A DNA stretch of 64,000 nucleotides from Neomicrococcus lactis (GTDB taxonomy: Bacteria; Actinomycetota; Actinomycetes; Actinomycetales; Micrococcaceae). The notes under the pieces are model-generated. The model saw only the letters and a list, made by a program, of their open reading frames with translations, did no database searches and was not told where the DNA came from. A program made the position numbers and the translations under genes. Numbering within the stretch: position 1 is the stretch's first letter; every line of letters begins with the position of its first letter. The stretch spans positions 1,550,001 through 1,614,000 of the forward strand of contig NZ_JACHBL010000001.1 in the NCBI RefSeq assembly GCF_014200305.1. Reading direction: 5' to 3'. Shown here piece by piece: positions 3,729 through 19,240 of this stretch.

Positions 3729-5012
3729 CTAGCCCTTCACGTAGGCGATACCGGCGGCCGCTGGGCCGCGCGACTTCCCCACGAGACCCGCAACGGCCAC
3801 GATGGTGACCACGTACGGGAGCATGATGAGGAACTGGCTTGGTACCGGCGTGCCCAGGATGGAGAGCACAAACTGAAGGTTGGTAGCGAAGCCGAACAAG
3901 AGGGCAGCGAAGAACGCGCCGATAGGGTTCCAACGGCCGAAGATGAGAGCCGCAAGAGCGATGAAGCCCTGGCCAGCGGTCATTTCCTTCGAGAAGGAAC
4001 CGGAAGATACAAGCGTGAAGAACGCGCCACCAAGACCGGCAACAGCACCACCGTAGAGGGTGTTGAGGTAGCGGGTGCGGTTCACGTTGATACCCACGGT
4101 GTCAGCGGCGGTTGGGTGCTCGCCAACGGCGCGGACGCGAAGGCCCCACTTGGTCTTGAAGAGTGCATACCAGATGCCGATCACGGCGAGGTACATCAAG
4201 TAGCCAACGATGGTCTGGTTGAACAGGATAGGTCCGAAGATCGGGATATCAGCCAAGACCGGGATGCGGATGGTCTCGAAGTGCACCGGGCTATTGAGCG
4301 TCTCAGCGTTGTCAGCGAGGACCTGCGAGAACAAGAAGCTCGTCAAGCCGGTGACCAGCACGTTGAGCACCACGCCCACGATGATCTGGTTCACCACGTA
4401 CTTGATCGAGAACACGGCCAAGACCAAACCAACCAAAGTACCGGCGGCCATGGCGCAGATGAGGCCCACCCATGGGCTCTGCGTGAGGGTGGCGCCCACC
4501 GCTGCGGCAAAAGCGCCCGCGAGAAGCTGACCCTCGATGGCGATGTTGACGATGCCCGCACGCTCGCAGAGCACGCCGGAGAGGCTACCGAAGATGAGCG
4601 GCGTCGCGAGGGTGAACGAACCAGCGATGAGGCCGGACAAGAACACGTTCGGGGTGTTAGCGGATCCGATGACCCAGACGAGGAACGCGGCCACAAAGAT
4701 CGCAGCGAAGGCCCAGCCCACCCACGAGTAGATGATGCCCTTCTTCGCCGTGGTGTAGAGGGCGTAGGCGGCGAGAGCTACCAGGAGGATCGAGAAGATC
4801 CACCCCCACAGAGCAGTGTTGGCCGAGATCGCTGGGATCTGAATGGAATCGCCCGCATTGGAGATACCGAACTGCGCGGTAGTTCCTGGGTTGCGAAGGG
4901 CGAAGACCACCAGGCCGATGAGCGCCAAGATCGCCATAGCAATGGGGCCACCCCAGTTGCGAATAACAGTTTTATTGGTGGACACAGGGGGTTCAAGAGT
5001 TACTGCGCTCAT
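3729..5012 (-). CDS. Nucleoside ABC transporter permease (NupC/YufQ-like)
   Basis: A 427-residue inner-membrane permease of the branched-chain amino acid/ribose/nucleoside (BPD_transp_2) class. About ten hydrophobic segments are visible. The cytoplasmic coupling loop has the family's GLRVRAVGEHPTAADTVGIN stretch (about residues 294-313), which contacts the ATPase. The N-terminus carries an extra 40-80 residues with additional helices compared with short permeases. Its ATG overlaps the stop of the upstream permease by four bases (ATGA), showing translational coupling. The neighbours (BMP lipoprotein, double-NBD ATPase, cdd, deoA) make nucleosides the likely substrate. Confidence 0.9.
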   Translation of the reverse strand: MSAVTLEPPVSTNKTVIRNWGGPIAMAILALIGLVVFALRNPGTTAQFGISNAGDSIQIPAISANTALWGWIFSILLVALAAYALYTTAKKGIIYSWVGWAFAAIFVAAFLVWVIGSANTPNVFLSGLIAGSFTLATPLIFGSLSGVLCERAGIVNIAIEGQLLAGAFAAAVGATLTQSPWVGLICAMAAGTLVGLVLAVFSIKYVVNQIIVGVVLNVLVTGLTSFLFSQVLADNAETLNSPVHFETIRIPVLADIPIFGPILFNQTIVGYLMYLAVIGIWYALFKTKWGLRVRAVGEHPTAADTVGINVNRTRYLNTLYGGAVAGLGGAFFTLVSSGSFSKEMTAGQGFIALAALIFGRWNPIGAFFAALLFGFATNLQFVLSILGTPVPSQFLIMLPYVVTIVAVAGLVGKSRGPAAAGIAYVKG

Positions 5013-14761: not shown

Positions 14762-15534
14762 TGAGCACCGTAGAACCAGCATCCAAGATTGACCTCAAGA
14801 CTGACGGCGGCAGCGGAGAGATCCCATCGTTCGACATCACCTTGAAGGTGCGTCGCTACGATCCAGAGTTCTCCGAAGAAGCAAAGTGGGACGAATACAC
14901 GCTCACGATGTACGGCACGGACCGCGTGCTTGATGCTCTTCACAAGGTGAAGTGGGAGATCGACGGCTCGTTGTCCTTCCGCCGCTCTTGCGCTCACGGT
15001 GTGTGTGGCTCTGACGCCATGCGCATCAACGGCCGCAACCGCCTTGCGTGCAAGACCCTCCTCAAGGACTTGGACACCTCCAAGCCCATCACCGTTGAGC
15101 CCATCAAGGGCCTTCCGGTGGAGAAGGACCTCATCGTGGATATGGAACCTTTCTTCCAGTCCTACCGCGAGATCATGCCGTTCTTGATCACCAAGGGACA
15201 CGAGCCTTCCAAGGAGCGCTACCAGTCCCCTGAGGATCGCGAGCGCTTCGATGACACCACCAAGTGCATCCTCTGCGCTGCGTGCACGTCTTCGTGCCCA
15301 GTGTTCTGGACCGATGGTCAGTACTTCGGCCCGGCAGCGATCGTGAACGCCCACCGCTTCATCTTCGACTCCCGCGACGAAGCCGGCGACATGCGTCTCG
15401 AAATCCTCAACGACAAGGAAGGCGTGTGGCGTTGCCGCACCACCTTTAACTGCTCCGAGGCTTGCCCACGTGGCATCCAGGTCACAAAGGCCATCTCGGA
15501 AGTCAAACAGGCTATCCTGGCTCGCCAGTTCTAG
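14761..15534 (+). CDS. sdhB: Succinate dehydrogenase iron-sulfur subunit
   Basis: Electron-transfer subunit of complex II, 257 residues. The 2Fe-2S cluster ligands are in RSCAHGVCGSDA with a later Cys (about 79-98). The 4Fe-4S ligands are in CILCAACTSSCP (about 170-181), and the third cluster uses CSEACPRG (about 231-238). The start overlaps the sdhA stop by one base (TAATG). A hairpin follows 26 bases after the stop, so the operon appears to end here. Confidence 0.97.
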   Translation: MSTVEPASKIDLKTDGGSGEIPSFDITLKVRRYDPEFSEEAKWDEYTLTMYGTDRVLDALHKVKWEIDGSLSFRRSCAHGVCGSDAMRINGRNRLACKTLLKDLDTSKPITVEPIKGLPVEKDLIVDMEPFFQSYREIMPFLITKGHEPSKERYQSPEDRERFDDTTKCILCAACTSSCPVFWTDGQYFGPAAIVNAHRFIFDSRDEAGDMRLEILNDKEGVWRCRTTFNCSEACPRGIQVTKAISEVKQAILARQF

Positions 15535-15560
15535 CCTCAAAATCACATCGCATCATCAGG

Positions 15561-15593
15561 GCGCGCCATGCCTTCGGGAGTGGCGCGCTTTGC
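15561..15593 (+). terminator. Terminator after sdhCDAB
   Basis: GCGCGCCA (15561-15568) pairs perfectly with TGGCGCGC (15581-15588) across a 12-base loop, followed by TTTGCGTTT. It lies just after the sdhB stop. Confidence 0.7.
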
Positions 15594-15718
15594 GTTTAAG
15601 GGTTCCCTACACAGCCGCCGCTCCCCCACGCAAGCATTGCGACGAAACATCTCCTATTACGTCGTCGGCGTCACAAAAGTAGCAATCCAGATCACATGAC
15701 TGATTTCATAATGGAACA

Positions 15719-15803
15719 CCATCCAGAGCGGCTGAGAGATCTGGCTCGTTGACGCCGCAGCAAATTGACTGCCCGGTCATAGTGCTAACGCCAGAATCGA
15801 TGG
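15719..15803 (+). promoter_or_regulatory. SAM-I (S-box) riboswitch aptamer
   Basis: The 361-base gap between sdhB and the next gene contains a recognisable S-box aptamer. P1 is CCATC (15719-15723) with GATGG (15799-15803). P2 is GCGGC (15728-15732) with GCCGC (15754-15758). P3 is TGAC (15766-15769) with GTCA (15776-15779). Conserved unpaired segments CAGAG, TGAGAGA, GCAGCAA and AGTGCTAACGCCAG match the S-box consensus order. It should sense S-adenosylmethionine and repress when SAM, and so sulfur, is plentiful. The assignment is by eye; a covariance-model search for RF00162 would settle it. Confidence 0.8.
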
Positions 15804-15862
15804 AAACTCGAGCGCTGGCTATGTTTCATGCTTCGGCTGTCTCTACCCGCCGTTCTCGGGGT

Positions 15863-15888
15863 TCCTTCTGTTACTCAACAACGAAGGA
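15863..15888 (+). promoter_or_regulatory. Possible Shine-Dalgarno sequestering hairpin
   Basis: TCCTTC (15863-15868) can pair with GAAGGA (15883-15888), which covers the ribosome binding site of the monooxygenase gene. This is a plausible translation-control expression platform for the riboswitch. No U-rich intrinsic terminator is seen between aptamer and gene, which also favours translational control. Confidence 0.45.
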
Positions 15889-15895
15889 GAAAATC

Positions 15896-17125
15896 ATGTC
15901 AGTCGAAACTCTTCAGACTTCGCCCCGCGTTCCCTACACGGGCAACGCCACCCCAGACGAGCTGTCCTACTGGGAAGCTATCGCACGTAATGTCGCTGAT
16001 CAGCTCCGCGTTGACGCTATTGAGCGAGATCGCGCTAACCAGCAGCCACGCCGCGAAGTCCAGCTCTTGAAGGATTCTGGTCTCCTCAACCTGCTCGCGC
16101 CCACCGAGTTCGGCGGAGGTGGCGGCCACTGGGAAACCGCCTTCCAGGCTATTCGCATCATTTCCAGCGTGGACGGCTCCATCGGCCAGCTTCTCGCCTA
16201 CCACTACATCAATCAGAGTGGAATCGCGTTCTATGCTTTGCCGCCAAGCCAGCCCGCATGGTGGCAGGCCACGGTCAACGGAAATTGGCTCTGGGGCGAT
16301 TCGGTCAACCCTGTAGACCCCACGCTCACCCTCACGGCTGATGGCGACGGTTACCGGCTCAATGGCCTCAAGCACTTCTCCACGGGTTCCGGTGTTGGAG
16401 ATGTCATTGTCTTCAATGCTCTCGTCGTCGATGGCATCAACGAAGGCAAGATCATCGCATTCGTCTTGGAGACCACTCGCGAAGGCGTCGAGCTCCTCGA
16501 TGACTGGGACAACCTGGGTCAGCGCCTCACCGGTTCCGGCAGCGTCAAGAACACCAACGTGCGCGTGAATCCCGTGGACGTTCTGGGTGAAGTGACGGAA
16601 GAGCCGATCTCCACTCTCTTGACCCCGGGCATCCAGTTGGCGTTCTCCAACTTCTACCTCGGATCCGCGGAAGGTGCCCTTGAACGCGGCCGTCAGATCC
16701 TCGTGGAGCGCAAGAATTCATGGTTCCTCTCCGGCGTGGACACCTACGCTGAGGACAAGATCTTCCAGCGCGCTATCGGCGAATTGAAGGCGCGCACTGC
16801 CGCCGTTGCCGCTCTTGCGGAAAAGATTAACCGCAAATTCGACGACGTCGCAGCTCGCCAAGGTGCCCTCACCTCCGAAGAGCGTTGGGCTTACGCGAAC
16901 GAAATCGCCGAGCTCAAGGTGGTCTCGACGGAGATCGGCCTCGAGGTATCTCACCGCATCTACGAAGTGACGGGCGCGAGCTCTACCAAGAGCAGCGTTG
17001 GCCTGGACTTGTTCTGGCGCAACGTCCGCACCCACACGCTCCACGACCCCGTGGACTACAAGAAGATCGAAGTTGGCGCGTACTACCTCAATCGCGACGT
17101 CCCAGCGCTCTCGCTCTACACCTAA
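15896..17125 (+). CDS. DszC/SfnB-like flavin-dependent monooxygenase
   Basis: A 409-residue member of the acyl-CoA dehydrogenase superfamily that aligns by eye with dibenzothiophene/sulfone monooxygenases (DszC, SfnB). Those enzymes use reduced FMN to oxidise organosulfur compounds. Visible features are ERDRANQQPRREVQLLKDSG, LLAPTEFGGGGG, the segment starting ISSVDGSIGQLLAYHY, and the flavin-region GLKHFSTGSG. The frame is open from 15749, but that part covers the riboswitch. The ATG at 15896 has AAGGAG six bases upstream. It is a single-gene unit with its own SAM riboswitch and a terminator after it, so the likely job is sulfur acquisition when SAM is low. The substrate is unknown and no flavin reductase is adjacent. 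Confidence 0.83.
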   Translation: MSVETLQTSPRVPYTGNATPDELSYWEAIARNVADQLRVDAIERDRANQQPRREVQLLKDSGLLNLLAPTEFGGGGGHWETAFQAIRIISSVDGSIGQLLAYHYINQSGIAFYALPPSQPAWWQATVNGNWLWGDSVNPVDPTLTLTADGDGYRLNGLKHFSTGSGVGDVIVFNALVVDGINEGKIIAFVLETTREGVELLDDWDNLGQRLTGSGSVKNTNVRVNPVDVLGEVTEEPISTLLTPGIQLAFSNFYLGSAEGALERGRQILVERKNSWFLSGVDTYAEDKIFQRAIGELKARTAAVAALAEKINRKFDDVAARQGALTSEERWAYANEIAELKVVSTEIGLEVSHRIYEVTGASSTKSSVGLDLFWRNVRTHTLHDPVDYKKIEVGAYYLNRDVPALSLYT

Positions 17126-17154
17126 GCCAGTAGCCACCACAGGCTGAAATCACT

Positions 17155-17213
17155 GAAGGCGCCGGCTCGCAACCACACTAAGTGGTCAAGCGAGTCGGCG
17201 CCTTCGGCTTTAG
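17155..17213 (+). terminator. Terminator after the monooxygenase gene
   Basis: GAAGGCGCCGGCTCGC (17155-17170) pairs with GCGAGTCGGCGCCTTC (17190-17205) with one mismatch, and an inner ACCAC/GTGGT hairpin sits in the loop. It lies between convergent genes (the monooxygenase and trpS) and may serve both. Confidence 0.7.
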
Positions 17214-17252
17214 ACCAGTTCACACGAGAACAAGCTCAGGCTAGATCCAAAA

Positions 17253-19240
<1,988 letters not shown>

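Follow-up and report, generated by a model that had tools for sequence, protein, structure and literature searches.

A variant SAM-I riboswitch candidate upstream of a DszC/SfnB-like monooxygenase gene in Neomicrococcus lactis and related Micrococcaceae

The locus and the encoded enzyme

We analysed a window of 64,000 nucleotides from the genome of Neomicrococcus lactis, in which a riboswitch leader stands before a gene for a predicted flavin monooxygenase. The gene lies between sdhB and a convergent trpS (names read from the translations).

15716 to 15806, plus strand: SAM-I (S-box) aptamer with two variant P3 positions (RF00162, full length, 51.6 bits)
15896 to 17125, plus strand: predicted DszC/SfnB/MsuC-like flavin monooxygenase, 409 aa, single-gene unit (Pfam, NCBIfam and PDB matches; alignment of 12 homologues)
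17155 to 17205, no strand assigned: 16-bp inverted repeat in the interval between the monooxygenase gene and trpS (arms 17155-17170 and 17190-17205)

The 409-aa reading frame, with DszC, SfnB and MsuC as its relatives by sequence, agrees with the original prediction of a single DszC/SfnB-like gene behind the riboswitch. The inverted repeat is a possible two-way terminator that escaped the terminator scan because its loop is too long. An in-frame ORF that starts with TTG (15749-17125, 458 aa) overlaps the aptamer, and gene callers may extend the protein wrongly.

The protein scores over the Pfam cut-offs of PF02771 and PF08028 and reaches 30.8 with PF02770, under that family's own cut-off of 33.3. 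These domains, combined with a histidine at the position of DszC residue 391, point to a flavin monooxygenase of the acyl-CoA-dehydrogenase fold. The histidine, H383, is invariant in all 12 aligned homologues, and its match to DszC chain position 391 follows from the alignment ranges. The available part of PMC11134501 describes His391 of DszC as catalytic, with a role in flavin hydroperoxide formation. The best NCBIfam matches were the DszC equivalog NF043015 (271.5 bits, cut-off 850) and the SfnB equivalog TIGR04022 (249.4 bits, cut-off 430.9); both scores are far under the cut-offs. Among PDB entries, 8CDA ('Probable monooxygenase') matched best, with 275.7 bits over residues 5-403, and the methanesulfinate monooxygenase MsuC (6U76) second best, with 251 bits; the DszC structures 3X0X and 4JEK are homologous over query residues 28-403. 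The enzyme probably oxidises an organosulfur compound, making its sulfur usable.

A SAM-I aptamer with an altered P3

The leader matches RF00162 over all 108 model positions (1-108) at 15716-15806 on the plus strand, with an E-value of 5.8e-09 and a score of 51.6 bits, over the gathering score of 44.4. It is the sole match to any Rfam family above its own cut-off within the 64-kb window. The covariance model thus supports the SAM-I assignment of the original prediction, and the S-box segments were found as claimed: CAGAG at 15724-15728, TGAGAGA at 15733-15739, GCAGCAA at 15757-15763 and GTGCTAA at 15782-15788. The aptamer comprises the following parts.

15719 to 15723, plus strand: P1 5' strand CCATC, pairing with 15799-15803 (RF00162 alignment, pair counts)
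15728 to 15758, plus strand: P2 arm, with P2a (15728-15732/15754-15758) and P2b (15736-15738/15745-15747) (RF00162 alignment)
15741 to 15744, plus strand: pseudoknot strand CTGG, pairing with CCAG at 15791-15794 (4/4 pairs standard in 13/13 distinct leaders)
15759 to 15786, plus strand: P3, with an outer part (15759-15762/15783-15786) and an inner part (TGAC 15766-15769/GTCA 15776-15779) (pair analysis)
15764, plus strand: A replacing SAM-I C47, which together with A at 15781 (position 55, G in most family leaders) marks the variant subclass (alignment; numbering of PMC3764141)
15799 to 15803, plus strand: P1 3' strand GATGG, common to P1 and a proposed ON helix (pairing analysis)

Conservation of the stems was assessed in an alignment of 15 SAM-I leaders (13 distinct rows), 14 of them from DszC-like genes and the other from a sister-genome importer gene. 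Standard pairs occupied 99.3% of the cells in P1, P2a, P2b, outer P3 and the pseudoknot, and sliding the partners by one to three columns lowered this to 22-47%. Two P2a pairs were changed on both sides, in one distinct row each, a result reached by 2 of 500 shuffles. The proposed P1, P2 and P3 pairing therefore holds across the homologous leaders. In the inner P3 hairpin the sequence varies while complementarity is kept in 14 of the 15 leaders; it is lost in L109, where a SAM-I leader without inner P3 hairpin occupies 4366-4443. Sequence and covariation establish the predicted aptamer fold. Another relative (L100:4438-4507) keeps only the first half of a SAM-I aptamer, followed immediately by the Shine-Dalgarno sequence; the switch has apparently been lost there through a natural deletion.

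The assumption that the aptamer is an ordinary one did not survive inspection of P3. The portion of PMC3764141 at hand lists G43, C44, A45, C47, G56, U57, G58 and C59 as highly conserved P3 bases and describes C47-G56 as a stacked pair thought to aid ligand stacking, and that of PMC9580860 places A46-C47 and G56-G58 around the ligand pocket. In the window, C47 is replaced by A while the other seven bases are present, and the C47-G56 pair beside the ligand is absent. Because this list of bases is no part of Rfam's formal threshold, the element is filed as a SAM-I variant. What is new here, as read from the alignment, is a leader without this highly conserved pair beside the SAM pocket.

The expression platform

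Downstream of the aptamer, the segments below could form two alternative helices.

15799 to 15812, plus strand: 5' arm of a proposed anti-sequester helix, GATGGAAACTCGAG (12 pairs kept in 3/3 genus leaders)
15855 to 15868, plus strand: 3' arm of the proposed anti-sequester helix, CTCGGGGTTCCTTC, whose last seven bases are the anti-Shine-Dalgarno (duplex and pair analysis)
15883 to 15889, plus strand: Shine-Dalgarno GAAGGAG, masked by TTCCTTC at 15862-15868 (7/7 pairs in 3/3 genus leaders, none varying; hairpin -8.2, p 0.017)

The hairpin TCCTTC (15863-15868)/GAAGGA (15883-15888) was found as originally described, ahead of the ATG at 15896; its energy of -8.2 kcal/mol was reached by 1.7% of 300 shuffles. 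The prediction stood as far as the mask is concerned; it named no partner that frees the Shine-Dalgarno, though the anti-Shine-Dalgarno has a possible partner in the P1 3' strand. The 14-base duplex GATGGAAACTCGAG/CTCGGGGTTCCTTC has an energy of -15.2 kcal/mol (p 0.007 in the window, at one of four widths tried). Against shuffled platforms, this duplex gave p < 0.05 in 6 of 12 leaders (0/300 in L022b; 0.10 in L022) and the Shine-Dalgarno hairpin in 7 of 12. Both 12-pair helix arms and TTCCTTC/GAAGGAG are kept in the window, in the orthologue leader and in the sister genome's second leader, with a diverged segment in between. In these three genus leaders two of the 12 helix pairs change on one side with pairing kept, and all cells (100%) are paired, compared with 33-78% for slid versions; with three sequences only, the shuffle control for the helix and the mask is without power (500/500). 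A similar layout, TTCGATGGA/TCCTTCGGA, is seen in Glutamicibacter leaders.

A two-helix switch, with the anti-sequester helix competing against the mask, is likely. The competing helix of P1 3' strand and anti-Shine-Dalgarno would complete a translational OFF switch, for which the computational support is mixed. Plain folding of the window leader gave no switching: the Shine-Dalgarno was open at about 6% both when P1 was forced and when its 5' strand was blocked, and at about 10% in the absence of constraints. The free ensemble (-64.0) lay far below the intended OFF (-55.8) and ON (-54.8) states, other structures being preferred. With forced folds, accessibility was unchanged in the window and L022 and increased in L022b (from 0.09 to 0.32), L089, L099 and L103.

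Two further versions of the platform were rejected. Local pairing of a 7-10 base segment between P1 and the anti-Shine-Dalgarno was no better than shuffles in the window, and extension of the window platform to 60 family leaders was unsupported, with mean z of 0.03 for P1 pairing and -0.18 for the mask in the 33 analysed; a script found no separate Shine-Dalgarno in 27 of the 60. In six of these 27 leaders (L171, L180, L187, L202, L209 and L224) the Shine-Dalgarno sits inside or beside the P1 3' strand, e.g., GATGGAGG and GATGGAAGGAG, so P1 itself may mask it there. A promoter scan returned no hits.

SAM-I elements in the genome and the family

The genome contains eight SAM-I elements, seven of them over the cut-off. 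Those outside the window precede the following genes.

SAM-I leader before an NtaA/DmoA-like LLM monooxygenase gene
SAM-I leader before SfnG
SAM-I leader before an SfnB-like gene
SAM-I leader before an ABC operon, followed by SfnB-like and LLM genes
SAM-I leader before Ssu transport genes, SsuB-SsuA-SsuC
SAM-I leader before an acetyl-CoA-synthetase-like gene
SAM-I leader before MetY (44.3, just under the cut-off)

Five of these seven elements precede organosulfur units, so the pairing with a DszC-like gene is no oddity. The remark in the original prediction that methionine, cysteine or SAM genes are the usual targets of SAM-I does not fit this genome. Its proposal that organosulfur scavenging is tied to a SAM switch gains support as a gene association. 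Elsewhere in the genome the LLM_B and SfnB_C genes adjoin, and the SAM-I element between them faces the LLM gene.

SAM-I matches were present in 98 of 120 family genomes. We inspected the 60 best-scoring of the listed matches outside the genus, a sample that favours high scores, in which the first gene was named mostly by similarity to proteins of this genome, with HMM checks on some. Organosulfur monooxygenase or uptake units stood behind 38 of these 60 best-scoring matches: 10 LLM, 10 SfnB-like, 3 SfnG, 8 Ssu, 6 OppA-type (counted as organosulfur on the strength of their companions in this genome) and one transporter followed by an SfnB-like gene. Methionine or cysteine units followed 17 of the 60 (9 ABC ATPase units, 4 MetY-like, 3 MetE-like and 1 MetQ-like), and an acetyl-CoA-synthetase-like gene followed five. 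The label OppDF at some of these loci means only ABC ATPase. HMMs supported a methionine type in 6 of the 9 ABC ATPase units (L172 and L179, MetN-like, below cut-off; L171, L175, L177 and L185, NlpA/MetQ lipoprotein), a typing that left out L170, L180 and L204. An LLM gene follows the ABC ATPase unit in L170 and L179. The acetyl-CoA-synthetase-like gene behind SAM-I (L010:6749-8728 and the five family loci) adjoins MetY in L153 and L163, and the enzyme could recycle acetate released by MetY.

Homologues of the monooxygenase and their leaders

A homologue at E <= 1e-60 was found in 30 of the 120 family genomes. Among 29 homologue loci, Rfam (E <= 0.01) placed SAM-I directly upstream in eight, including L042 at 43.0 bits, under the cut-off, and SAM-IV in two; in L054 and L055, SAM-I and SAM-IV matches lie farther upstream. 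The L045 leader was missed by Rfam, and its copy L113 scored 56 bits with a custom model. Individual loci were taken from the best 80 of 310. Among these 80, SAM-I stood directly upstream in 12, with one truncated remnant (L100), and headed an SfnB-DszC unit in four loci of Nesterenkonia or Garicola; SAM-IV stood directly upstream in six Arthrobacter loci. The custom SAM-I model R1 was built without DszC leaders but with the related importer leader L018. Model R2 was built from three SAM-IV sequences, of which L052 and L053 apparently duplicate the contigs of L123 and L142; two of the six SAM-IV matches therefore hold by construction. An R1 match of 23.5 bits in L124 was taken as chance because its sequence reads like coding sequence of the upstream luciferase-like gene.

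In the protein tree, direct SAM-I leaders occur in three lineages (the window genus, Glutamicibacter and Galactobacter) of one supported clade of 28 rows, 14 of which carry no direct SAM-I label. SAM-IV rows group elsewhere, and 58 of all 82 rows have no SAM leader label. Some homologues keep SAM-I, some have SAM-IV and many have neither. Four close homologues without a SAM riboswitch match (L038, L039, L043 and L046) have in common an upstream motif resembling GTTCCTAGAGTC..TCATTGATTCGA, which may be a promoter or a site for a regulator.

LLM, DszC-like and SfnB-like genes recur together at the homologue loci. Genuine CUT2 pieces were located upstream on the same strand in eight of the best 80 of 310 loci (L090, L094, L097, L098, L107, L110, L122 and L154) and divergently in L148 and L162; an earlier count of 30 of 80 reflected only weak ATPase similarity and was discarded.

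The C47-lacking leaders

The base after GCAA is C in all 74 leaders of other genes (14 genus, 60 family), a set without the importer leader of the sister genome, itself a variant. Among 14 DszC leaders only three have this C; those of Galactobacter are canonical. Because the 60 best-scoring matches favour canonical cores, we also used a score-free core pattern, which does not detect leaders altered elsewhere in the core (L109, L113 and L154 among the known ones). Across 395 Micrococcaceae genomes, this pattern matched cores with C47 in 248 (27 genera) and cores without it at 21 sites, spread over 17 genomes from four genera; these 17 also contain 64 C47 cores (summed rows). At the 21 sites, position 47 is G in 13, A in 7 and T in 1, and position 48 is T in 13 and C in 8, while all 21 have A at 55 followed by GTGC (56-59). 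An order-wide search with the pattern (396 genomes, 35 of them of the family, run without C47 control) returned a non-C47 match in the window genome only.

Of the genes behind the 21 sites, eleven are DszC-like and nine encode a ribose-type (CUT2) binding protein or ABC operon, i.e., 20 of 21 belong to these two kinds; the window site has the complete combination of a base other than C at 47, A at 55, GTGC at 56-59 and a DszC-like or CUT2 gene behind. The remaining site (L229 / L253, genome G017) has a very short P3 and precedes an OsmC-like gene. In five CUT2 loci that were read through (L251, L252 and L254-L256), LLM and DszC-like genes follow, and in L252 and L256 the DszC-like gene has its own leader and is followed by an SfnB-like gene. 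By comparison, a search reaching up to 2.6 kb behind the 60 best-scoring family leaders found CUT2 genes at none and a DszC-like gene at one (L207, after an SfnB-like gene). In the sister genome a CUT2 binding-protein gene with its own variant leader comes after the DszC-like gene; the window genome gave no CUT2 binding-protein match. We read the C47-lacking leaders as a variant SAM-I subclass that appears tied to one organosulfur system.

Interpretation

Our preferred reading, with a probability of roughly 0.77, is that a variant SAM-I riboswitch shuts off translation of the DszC/SfnB-like monooxygenase when SAM is plentiful, as one unit of an organosulfur regulon. With ligand bound, P1 (15719-15723/15799-15803) would close and leave TTCCTTC free to pair with the Shine-Dalgarno, the OFF state. 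In the ligand-free RNA, pairing of the P1 3' strand and the adjoining CTCGAG with CTCGGGGTTCCTTC would expose the Shine-Dalgarno, the ON state. We infer SAM as the ligand, the OFF direction, the switch helices and the release of sulfur. The monooxygenase would be one member of a regulon under SAM riboswitches that serves organosulfur uptake and oxidation. Within it, the C47-lacking subclass would accompany a single system made up of a ribose-type ABC importer, an NtaA/DmoA-like LLM monooxygenase, a DszC-like enzyme and often an SfnB-like one.

The altered pocket could bind SAM weakly or not at all. Most probably SAM remains the ligand of the variant, possibly bound with altered affinity, since SAM-IV or canonical SAM-I precedes related genes elsewhere and the leader is laid out as an OFF switch. 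A broader proposal, tentative and rather unlikely in our view, is that the leaders lacking C47-G56 form a distinct riboswitch class serving a single uncharacterised CUT2-LLM-DszC/SfnB system, with a pocket re-tuned in affinity or re-aimed at another ligand. Since the importer of that system is ribose-type, the organosulfur compound imported and desulfurised would be sugar- or nucleoside-like. Distinctly unlikely is a full change of ligand, from SAM to a metabolite of the CUT2-LLM-DszC pathway or to another compound of S-adenosyl or nucleoside type. It would fit the position of the highly conserved C47 and G56 at the pocket (PMC3764141 and PMC9580860, in their available parts), the uniform set of a non-C at 47, A at 55 and GTGC in 21/21 variant sites, and the marking of one system by 20/21 of them in genomes that also hold 64 C47 cores. 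However, the related genes under SAM-IV in other Arthrobacter and under canonical SAM-I in Galactobacter point to SAM, the bases for methionine and sulfonium recognition (G11, C44, G58 and U7, following the accessible text of PMC3764141) are kept in the window, and an OFF switch would suit an end product better than a substrate.

We consider it very improbable that the element is a decaying SAM-I riboswitch, losing ligand binding while the gene becomes constitutive. Signs of decay occur in relatives with a truncated aptamer (L100), without inner P3 (L109) or with changed core motifs (L113), and the variant leaders have low Rfam scores (43-53 bits), but the remaining core is intact in the window and in G001, the same variant is kept in three genera before DszC-like or CUT2 units, and both proposed switch arms persist in 3/3 genus leaders despite the diverged middle. 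Many classical S-boxes of Firmicutes act by transcription termination. To such a mode in place of Shine-Dalgarno masking we give almost no weight here: the terminator scan found no plus-strand terminator-like site in 15500-17300, and the 7-bp mask is conserved in 3/3 genus leaders.

These findings point to a bacterial family with SAM riboswitches, best known from methionine genes, before much of its organosulfur-scavenging machinery, and in which related genes have SAM-I or SAM-IV upstream. A variant pocket restricted to one system would offer a clean test of affinity or ligand change in a riboswitch, and the system itself points to an organosulfur nutrient with a ribose-type importer.

Comparison with known systems

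Searches of the open-licence literature for SAM riboswitch with dibenzothiophene and for riboswitch with SfnB found nothing, which does not imply absence from print; 8CDA was not found named together with 'monooxygenase' there either. The matches for SAM riboswitch with Arthrobacter, with sulfonate or with sulfone, monooxygenase and actinobacteria were, in their available parts, not on this pairing. The portion seen of a 2013 regulon survey has a table naming only Corynebacteriaceae and Mycobacteriaceae among Actinobacteria (PMC3766115), and the accessible parts of PMC2864571, PMC12452182, PMC5481743 and PMC3868597 held nothing decisive.

The window element resembles the SAM-I riboswitch (RF00162) in its full-length match over the cut-off, P1-P3, pseudoknot and most core bases, but differs in that C47 and G55 are replaced, the C47-G56 pair is lost and a DszC/SfnB-like oxidase follows. 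The SAM-IV riboswitch (RF00634) also lies immediately upstream of related DszC-like genes in other Arthrobacter (L052 and L053), although with another aptamer architecture. The enzyme shares with dibenzothiophene monooxygenase DszC (3X0X, 4JEK) homology over residues 28-403 and the histidine H383 at position 391, whereas its 271.5 bits fall far short of the equivalog cut-off of 850. With the SfnB family and MsuC it shares the superfamily, 6U76 being the second-best PDB match, but again scores well below the SfnB cut-off (249.4 against 430.9 bits). Its closest match in the PDB is 8CDA, annotated as a probable monooxygenase.
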